From Chloroflexota bacterium (GTDB taxonomy: Bacteria > Chloroflexota > Anaerolineae > UBA1429): DNA of 64,000 nucleotides. Within the stretch, counting starts at the first letter, position 1. Every line of letters starts with the position of its first letter. Below the pieces are notes generated by a model, which worked only from the letters and a program-made list of their open reading frames with translations, was not told the origin of the DNA and searched no databases. Location of the stretch: assembly GCA_012719135.1 (NCBI GenBank), contig JAAYAW010000073.1:1-64000 (forward strand), written 5' to 3'. This document shows, piece by piece, positions 59,279 through 64,000 of the stretch. The translations under genes were made by a program, and so were the position numbers.

Positions 59279-60079
59279 CTAGCCACGCTCCGCCAGTTGC
59301 TCGGGAATGCGCCATGGGCGGAGCACGTCTCGACCGTCACGTACGCCCTGTATCACTGTGAGGTTGACGTAGCTCTCCAGTCTCTCACGTAGGGTGCGGT
59401 TGTCGAGGCCGCTGGCGATGTGCCTGCGGATGGCGGGGAGCTCTGCTATAAGGGCCTCGTTCTGCAGGCGGATCGCGTCTACATCGATCCACAGCGACGG
59501 CATGCCCGAGCGGATCAGGGCGGCGAGATCGTGCTCGTCGCGGGGGAGAGCGTCCACCTCGAGGGCATAGAGCCCCAGCATGTCTACATGATGACCGTCG
59601 GATGCGGCTGTGGTCGGTAGGCCGAGCTGAAGAGCGAGGTCTACGGCCCGAGTGTGCGAATAGTTGTAGATGTTCGTGCTCATGATTTCGACGGCGTCTA
59701 CACCATAGTTGTAGACTTCATCCGGCACGCAGTCACGGTACCGATACGGGTGCGCCAGTACGACAGAGGCGCCCTGGCCGTGCGCTATCTGCAGAATCTC
59801 GGATGCCTCCATGCCGGCGCCAACAGACGACCGGTCTGTGAGACCGTAGACGAGGTAATCGTCACCATCGCTCGAGGTTAGCTCGGTGGCAACGTACAGC
59901 CGGACGTCGGGGTAGGCCGCCTGGACCTCATCCACCTCATCCTGGGGCCAGTGCAGATTGTGCTCGGTGAAAACCACCGCGTCCAGCCCGATCTCCTGCG
60001 CTCTGGCGACCATCTCTTCCGGGGTAGACCGTCCGCAGGGGGAATACCGGCTGGTGTGCACGTGCAAGTCAATCAGCAT
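59279..60079 (-). CDS. PHP domain-containing protein
   Basis: MLIDLHVHTSRYSPCGRSTPEEMVARAQEIGLDAVVFTEHN. Confidence 0.9.
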   Translation of the reverse strand: MLIDLHVHTSRYSPCGRSTPEEMVARAQEIGLDAVVFTEHNLHWPQDEVDEVQAAYPDVRLYVATELTSSDGDDYLVYGLTDRSSVGAGMEASEILQIAHGQGASVVLAHPYRYRDCVPDEVYNYGVDAVEIMSTNIYNYSHTRAVDLALQLGLPTTAASDGHHVDMLGLYALEVDALPRDEHDLAALIRSGMPSLWIDVDAIRLQNEALIAELPAIRRHIASGLDNRTLRERLESYVNLTVIQGVRDGRDVLRPWRIPEQLAERG

Positions 60080-60260
60080 GGAAACCGCCTTCTAGCGTGC
60101 CCTGACAGGGCCTGGCGAGACGCTCCAGGCAGTATAGCACAGGCCCCAAGTGATGACCGCATCGGATACGGGTGCCCCGCCTGCCATCGCGCTGCTCGCC
60201 ATCCCGGTAGCAGGCACCCGCGGGAAAAGCAAAGGAGCCAGCCTTGCGGCTGGCTCCCTC

Positions 60261-60337
60261 TGGTCGGGGCGAGACGATTTGAACGTCCGACCACTTGAAC
60301 CCCATTCAAGTGCGCTACCGGGCTGCGCTACGCCCCG
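60261..60337 (-). tRNA. tRNA-Pro (anticodon GGG)
   Basis: CGGGGCGTAGCGCAGCCCGGTAGCGCACTTGAATGGGGTTCAAGTGGTCGGACGTTCAAATCGTCTCGCCCCGACCA; CCA encoded. Confidence 0.93.
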
Positions 60338-60409
60338 ATCATCTGCCATTATAGGAGGCTTGCCTTTGCCGCGCAAATCACGGCGTCGCGAGCGGCTCGA
60401 GAGCGCAGT

Positions 60410-60438
60410 TTGACAGGCCGTCAGGCCCGTGATATGAT
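60410..60438 (+). promoter_or_regulatory. Consensus sigma70 promoter of the lys operon (TTGACA-N17-TATGAT)
   Basis: TTGACA 60410-60415, spacer 60416-60432 (17 bp), TATGAT 60433-60438. Confidence 0.75.
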
Positions 60439-60487
60439 CCGGCCCATTCAGAAAGAGGCCGCCAGTGAGCCTCAGTGGAAGCAAGAA

Positions 60488-60583
60488 ATGGTATATCGCG
60501 AGCGCATAACCGAGATCCCCGCCGTTTCGGCGGATCTCATCAAGAAGAGCAAGCGTATCAAGGCTGACCCCTGGTCAGGCTAG
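60488..60583 (+). CDS. Candidate lysine leader peptide MVYRERITEIPAVSADLIKKSKRIKADPWSG
   Basis: 31-codon ORF between promoter and terminator; Lys codons at 60542-60547, 60551-60553, 60560-60562. Confidence 0.6.
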   Translation: MVYRERITEIPAVSADLIKKSKRIKADPWSG

Positions 60584-60620
60584 TCTTGCTCATGCCTCGC
60601 ATCTGAGGATACGGAAACAA

Positions 60621-60654
60621 GAGCGACTCCCCGGCCAGGGGGGTCGCTCTTTTT
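60621..60654 (+). terminator. Intrinsic terminator/attenuator upstream of lysW
   Basis: GAGCGACTCCCC-GGCCA-GGGGGGTCGCTC-TTTTT; 12-bp stem with one G/U. Confidence 0.88.
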
Positions 60655-60721
60655 CGTACGTCGGCATCGTGGGCGTGTTGGTGTTGTGGCAGTGGGTCAA
60701 CTAGAGAACAGGAGACATGAG

Positions 60722-63280
<2,559 letters not shown>

Positions 63281-63289
63281 GAGGGATGC

Positions 63290-63787
63290 ATGGCCACCGT
63301 ATGGGTCTTCGGAGATGATGTCGACACCGATCAGATCGTGCCTGGACGGTATGCGCCCTATATGAAGTCCGAATCCGAACTGGGCAAGTTCCCGTTCATC
63401 GAGGCGCGGCCGGAGTTTGCCAGAGAGGTGCAACCCGGTGACGTGATCGTCGCGGGCCGCAACTTTGGGTGCGGTTCCTCTCGAGAGTATGCCCCGCGGG
63501 CGCTGTTCATAGCCGGCGTGGGCGCGATCGTCGCCCCGAGCTTTGCGCGCATCTTTTTCCGGAACGCGCTAAATCTGGGCCTGCCGCTCGTACAGGCCGA
63601 CCTGCGGGGGCGCGTGGTCGATAGACAGCCGGTAGATCTCGACCTGGCACGTCCGGGGCTGCGCGTGAATGGCGAGTGGCTGGCGCTGCCCGCACAACCG
63701 GAATGGCTGCGGCTGGCATGGGCCGAAGGGGGCATCATACAGTACTATGCCAGACACGGGCGCCTGCCCGTGGAGGCAACCTCGTGA
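63290..63787 (+). CDS. Homoaconitase small subunit (LeuD/HacB family)
   Basis: [32 protein letters not shown]. Confidence 0.9.
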
Positions 63788-64000
63788 GCCCGGTGATCTG
63801 TCTCCTCGAAGGGGATGGCATCGGCAGGGAGGTGATTCCCGCGGCAAGGCGCGTGCTGGAGGTTCTCTGCCCCGATCTGTCCTTTGTGCAGGCGGAGGCG
63901 GGCTGGGAGACCTTCCAGAGGGAGGGCACCGCGCTCCCTGAGCGTACTGTGGATGCCGTGGCCCATGCCGATGCCACTCTGTTCGGCGCGGTCTCGTCGC
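63784..64000 (+). CDS. Isocitrate/isopropylmalate dehydrogenase family, probably homoisocitrate dehydrogenase (partial at window edge)
   Basis: GTG start; [28 protein letters not shown]...[11 protein letters not shown]; 4-bp overlap with previous CDS. Confidence 0.85.

Follow-up and report, generated by a model that had tools for sequence, protein, structure and literature searches.

The window, which is the whole stretch of 64,000 nucleotides of Chloroflexota DNA analysed here, ends inside a complete operon for lysine biosynthesis by the LysW/aminoadipate pathway. The first genes of this operon lie within the window (Table 1), whereas lysX, lysY, lysZ, lysJ and lysK follow further along the contig, past the window's end. 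All ten genes match NCBIfam models, several of them above the cut-off. The nearest LysW proteins with named records come from Chloroflexota MAGs, several of which are labelled Anaerolineae.

A sequence-only reading of this DNA had proposed that the region in front of lysW is a lysine leader-peptide attenuator, made up of a consensus promoter, an ORF of 31 codons that has Lys at four positions in a run of seven, and an intrinsic terminator. Scans and sequence confirm each of these elements. The promoter is the sole promoter-like site that the scan finds within 2 kb. The leader ORF, whose codons 19, 20, 22 and 25 are Lys, is alone among the 621 ORFs of 15–60 codons on both strands of the window in reaching four or more Lys in seven codons; upstream of its ATG, GGAAG is only weakly Shine-Dalgarno-like. 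Hence, as expected of a ribosome-mediated attenuator, a short ORF that is rich in codons for the pathway's own amino acid, and that is predicted to be translated, lies between promoter and first gene, and an intrinsic terminator lies between this ORF and the first structural gene, lysW. The terminator stem is formed by AAGAGCGACTCCCC and GGGGGGTCGCTCTT (60619–60651) and is followed by a T run. The leader as a whole is more stable than its shuffles (z of −3.7). A hairpin inside the ORF, for which a role in pausing had been suggested, is real (the 36 nt that precede the Lys run fold at −16 kcal/mol), but it is only partly conserved: the hairpin beats shuffles in about half of the relatives, with z of about −2 to −3 in five leaders and near 0 or positive in eight others.

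Table 1. Features of the leader and of the operon behind it (window coordinates).
Feature	Position	Strand	Basis or remark
Sigma-70-type promoter, TTGACA-17-TATGAT	60410–60438	+	Scan; 11/12 matches
Leader peptide ORF, MVYRERITEIPAVSADLIKKSKRIKADPWSG*	60488–60583	+	31 codons; ATG at 60488, stop TAG at 60581–60583
In-ORF hairpin directly 5' of the Lys run, possible pause hairpin	60512–60538	+	Partly conserved
Sensor codons, Lys AAG at 60542, 60545, 60551 and 60560	60542–60562	+	Sequence; Lys run kept in homologous leaders
Helix P1, 5' arm GAGCAAG, overlapping the Lys codons; partner 60585–60591	60547–60553	+	MFE
Arm A, CTGACC (GCCGGACC in relatives), P-D codons; pairs with B	60564–60569	+	MFE
Arm B, TGGTCAGG, codons W-S-G; partner A or C	60572–60579	+	
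AGTCTTGCTC, P1 3' arm; alternative partner GAGCGACT (60621–60628), lengthening the antiterminator	60582–60591	+	
Intrinsic terminator (attenuator)	60619–60654	+	Scan and folding; conserved with compensatory changes
Arm C, CCCGGCCA, terminator 5' arm and loop; complementary to B	60630–60637	+	
lysW, first gene of the controlled operon	60722–60886	+	TIGR01206, above cut-off
Homocitrate synthase (LysS type)	60889–62043	+	TIGR02146, above cut-off
lysT, homoaconitase-type large subunit	62036–63280	+	NCBIfam model match
lysU, homoaconitase-type small subunit	63290–63787	+	NCBIfam model match
Homoisocitrate dehydrogenase, 5' part inside the window	63784–64000	+	NCBIfam model match

Comparison with relatives shows that the short ORF and its Lys codons are both conserved, so this check did not refute the proposal. 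LysW is present in 76 of 100 relatives. In the window's own family, all 14 genomes that bear lysW have a Lys-codon leader just before a terminator, and the ORF ends 98–188 nt upstream of lysW. Peptides from different genomes have unrelated N-terminal halves and share the Lys run, the codons P-D-x-x-S-G and the stop. A TTGAC[AG]-17-TAnnnT promoter is found 87–158 nt before the leader stop in 15 of 15 close leaders (the 14 of the family plus that of genome G036). Looking more broadly, a strong terminator is present in 31 of 91 non-redundant lysW upstream regions, and in 24 of the 31 it is closely preceded by a short ORF rich in Lys. At a threshold of at least four in seven codons, Lys scores 20 among these upstream regions and the next residues score 2, while reverse strands and dinucleotide shuffles of the same regions yielded no Lys cases. 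Two leaders from further afield also combine Lys codons and a terminator before lysW: one in Gemmatimonadota (L081), with an 11-pair complement between arms B and C, and one in Phycisphaerales (L103), which we do not claim as a member of the common chassis described below, as its B and C arms look different.

Four arms recur among the leaders: P1, in which GAGCAAG pairs with CUUGCUC after the stop; A, which reads GCCGGACC; B, which reads xGGUCUGG and encodes x-S-G; and C, which reads CCAGACCx'. P1 and A:B form a competing 1:2 structure, and C together with the 3' half forms the terminator. We assign the A:B pairing to the terminating or no-ribosome state. Because B also pairs with C in the 5' arm and loop of the terminator, B and the post-stop segment constitute an antiterminator with the terminator's 5' half. 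The sequence-only reading has to be corrected here. In the main antiterminator, the end of the ORF and the post-stop segment both pair with the terminator's 5' half; the competing 1:2 helix involves the Lys-codon segment itself. Of the two antiterminator pairings suggested earlier, the one between AGTCTTGCTC and the terminator's 5' half fits this conserved scheme, whereas the one between GACCCCTGG and the 3' half is not conserved (mean complementarity of 11.5 versus 18.6 for the 5' half).

The pairings are supported by covariation. Over 18 leaders, P1 is 91.7% paired and shows compensatory changes, and of the 26 pairs that make up the attenuated state as a whole, which are 87% paired, 13 have double changes. 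None of 500 shuffles matched these 13 double-change pairs, and sliding the partners collapses the signal. Over 81 aligned members, 24 of the 26 pairs have double changes, a count that leans towards structure since the alignment was fitted to it. Because MAFFT put arm C out of register, B:C was tested by comparing own with swapped partners and by a hand-registered alignment. The complementarity of B with its own C is 18.6, versus 15.8 for swapped partners, and none of 5000 permutations attains the observed value. In the hand-registered set the first base of B pairs as U-A, G-C, A-U and C-G. This base is also the first base of a W, R, G or K codon, so that changes there are non-synonymous while the pairing is kept. 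Furthermore, in four leaders (L030, L208, L253 and L254) the stop lies upstream of B, and GTCTGG is nevertheless retained; B is therefore conserved as RNA and not as peptide. The window's own B:C helix has seven of eight possible pairs, including one G-U, and one mismatch, and is weaker than in many relatives. Covariation thus backs an antiterminator that excludes the terminator, as well as a 1:2 helix that spans the regulatory codons and, in the absence of a stalled ribosome, leaves the terminator free.

Ribosome-masked folding adds information on the order of events. At equilibrium the finished leader folds to the terminator whatever the position of the ribosome. When the whole 5' leader is included, the antiterminator pairing is weak (at most 0.09), with Lys A-site positions that are 1–2 nt off. 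A terminator as the final equilibrium fold is expected for attenuators of this type. If the leader is a switch, it must therefore be a kinetic one, decided before the 3' half of the terminator exists. Our codon scan represents this situation by folding only the RNA that lies 3' of the ribosome and 5' of the terminator's 3' half. In the window, the terminator's 5' half forms 11–16 expected pairs with upstream RNA when the ribosome is at the Lys codons, 7.4 when it is at the stop and 3.2 without a ribosome. The Lys-codon state exceeds the stop state in 48 of 48 Lys leaders tested, with means of 15.7 and 4.0. In most leaders the drop starts 1–2 codons past the last Lys; part of it is built into the method, as more RNA is masked when the ribosome stands further downstream.

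The leader is not restricted to lysine operons. Two covariance models were used, one built on Lys leaders (R1) and a second one that includes the argC-leader locus of the window's genome (R2). The Lys-leader model matches 137 of 299 genomes of the class at E up to 0.01, of which about 3 are expected by chance from the E-value, and there are matches in other classes of the phylum too. The additional matches do not represent noise. Matches at E of about 1e-5 to 1e-4 that resemble plain terminators (e.g., L262, L263, L309 and L314, and likewise L316, L321 and L323) were not counted as leaders. The second match in the window's genome (L232, G000:C27:35942-36048) lies outside the window, before argC. 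It reads L-W-R-S-R-R-Y-E-P-D-K-P-S-G-stop, with the Arg codons RSRR in the same chassis, and has an E-value of 0.004 with R1 and of 1e-11 with R2, which includes it. The argC leaders of the family carry RRSPR or RRSRR codons in the common A/B/C chassis, with the P1 arms refitted (GCCCGAG with CUUGGGC). Other matches comprise Arg leaders before argG and carA, Pro leaders before proS, and Lys leaders before lysW, lysX or homocitrate synthase (in the last case lysW is internal to the operon). Scanning 98 loci (39 Lys, 46 Arg and 13 Pro) for all 20 residues in three frames with no prior choice, we find that the dominant leader residue agrees with the downstream pathway in 86 of them. Shuffled labels give 36 matches on average and 53 at most.

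Several loci of this family deserve to be mentioned individually. Pro-rich leaders on the same chassis precede proS operons at ten loci, and in some of these operons a metallophosphoesterase gene comes first, between the leader and proS. Ten loci belong to tandem pairs of Lys leaders before one lysine operon. In genome G008, a Lys leader (L023) precedes one of the two lysW operons and an Arg leader (L156, RIRRARAK) precedes the other. At five loci, operons with two LysX-type ligases have mixed Arg/Lys leaders (RRARAKR, RVRKRAKR), which suggests joint lysine and arginine biosynthesis or control. An apparent mismatch between cassette and gene occurs at L303 and L308, where a Pro-/Gln-rich leader, QPLPYKRPQPQPPK, precedes a homocitrate-synthase-like gene. 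Lastly, a weak model match before aspartate kinase (L258) has Met codons in its short ORF, MKNMLMTQFGWNRE.

Taken together, our results indicate, with a probability of roughly 90%, that the element in the window attenuates transcription of the LysW operon by sensing lysine through a translating ribosome, and that it is a member of a family of Chloroflexota attenuators in which sensor codons are exchanged on a common RNA chassis. The original proposal was largely right: relatives show conservation or covariation of the Lys codons, the position of the stop, the spacing of the promoter, the terminator and the alternative pairings. From these elements, and from the match between codons and downstream genes, we infer where a ribosome would stall, how stalling would be timed, in which direction regulation would run and which chemical signal would drive it. 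Transcription would start near 60446, and a ribosome would enter the leader ORF. If Lys-tRNA is scarce, the ribosome would wait at the Lys codons and cover the 5' arms of the 1:2 structure, that is, GAGCAAG and, once it stands at the last Lys, also arm A. Covering these arms would leave arm B and the post-stop segment free to pair with arm C and GAGCGACT before the 3' half of the terminator is made, and the polymerase would continue into lysW. If lysine is plentiful, the ribosome would reach the stop and cover B, the terminator would form and transcription would end. Without translation, A:B and P1 would form, and termination would be the default.

One could argue instead that the terminator is constitutive, sitting in a long 5' leader in which a Lys-rich ORF occurs by coincidence. 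Terminator-like hairpins are common in GC-rich leaders, and equilibrium folding does always give the terminator. Yet the Lys run, the stop position and the alternative pairing are conserved across family and class, and residue identity tracks the downstream pathway. Codons that match the pathway contradict a fixed terminator with a chance ORF, and we regard this explanation as highly improbable. Even less credible is that the terminator is controlled by a direct lysine-binding riboswitch or a T-box. Lysine genes elsewhere are indeed under L-box riboswitches or T-boxes, but here the structured segment overlaps the codons and tracks them from Lys to Arg to Pro. In addition, an Rfam search of 60000–61000 with E up to 1 returned only a tRNA and a sub-threshold sRNA, with no T-box and no lysine riboswitch (RF00168); RF00168 was likewise missing from 60 relatives, although it was detected in the positive-control genomes, and no Rfam family explains nine further leader loci.

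A similarly minute chance is left for the short ORF being a functional small protein next to an incidental terminator. The conserved C-terminal motif KKPDxxSG speaks for a peptide, but the N-terminal half is not conserved, the motif varies non-synonymously with compensating changes in the terminator, and the stop can move upstream of the motif while the nucleotides stay. Poor N-terminal conservation and moved stops thus make a functional peptide unlikely. Translation of the leader could also act mainly in another way, either through Rho-type termination when coupling is lost or through a regulator protein that binds the leader, with Lys codons that merely slow the ribosome. Ribosome transit influences Rho as well as intrinsic terminators. 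However, the intrinsic terminator present is strong and followed by a T run, the antiterminator covaries, and we did not see an additional conserved protein-binding site. This last explanation we consider very unlikely. We therefore retain the lysine-sensing, ribosome-mediated attenuator as our reading of the locus.

Leader-peptide attenuation itself is of a known kind; the most interesting aspect is a shared chassis with exchanged codons. In Thermus thermophilus, the lysine cluster was reportedly described by Tsubouchi and colleagues, in about 2005, as being under leader-peptide attenuation. By that description, the system resembles ours in its LysW/aminoadipate pathway, in its leader peptide with Lys codons and in having an attenuator ahead of the operon. 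It belongs to another phylum, whereas the Chloroflexota leaders share a common A/B/C chassis with Lys, Arg or Pro codons and occur in tandem copies in several genomes. The trp, his, thr and ilv attenuators of Proteobacteria likewise have a leader ORF with regulatory codons, 1:2, 2:3 and 3:4 helices and a terminator before the first gene. Here, in contrast, the codons are for Lys, Arg or Pro, the lineage is a different one and a single sequence-similar chassis serves several amino acids per genome. The L-box riboswitch (RF00168) also controls lysine genes through a lysine-responsive terminator, but neither its sequence nor its structure is matched in the window or the 60 relatives, and sensing in our leaders would be by codons. 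Outside Proteobacteria, classical leader-peptide control of biosynthetic and aminoacyl-tRNA synthetase genes is found in Actinobacteria as well (trpS, leuS, ilv and others), where no conserved RNA structure is reported ahead of operons for arginine or lysine (PMC1262725). Most descriptions of leader-peptide attenuation concern Proteobacteria and Actinobacteria, and a 2010 survey states that such systems were unknown elsewhere before its own case in Firmicutes (PMC2965389). In the literature searched we found no published example of a leader-peptide attenuator from Chloroflexota.

It is likely, in our view, that these leaders make up an undescribed modular attenuator family of Chloroflexota. 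Its chassis (CCGGACC/GGTCTGG/CCAGACC plus terminator) would have been duplicated genome-wide and retargeted to Lys, Arg or Pro by swapping the sensor codons and the P1 arm. The family would control biosynthetic operons and prolyl-tRNA synthetase, often with tandem copies in the case of lysine.

If our interpretation is right, attenuation is widespread in a phylum, the Chloroflexota, for which hardly any regulatory data exist, and it occupies the place that the lysine riboswitch has in other bacteria. Tandem Lys attenuators pose the question of multiplicative control. A shared chassis with exchanged codons would be a natural experiment on how attenuators are duplicated and retargeted. Should the family indeed be modular, then the codon cassette could tell whether an ambiguous LysW-type operon makes lysine or arginine.
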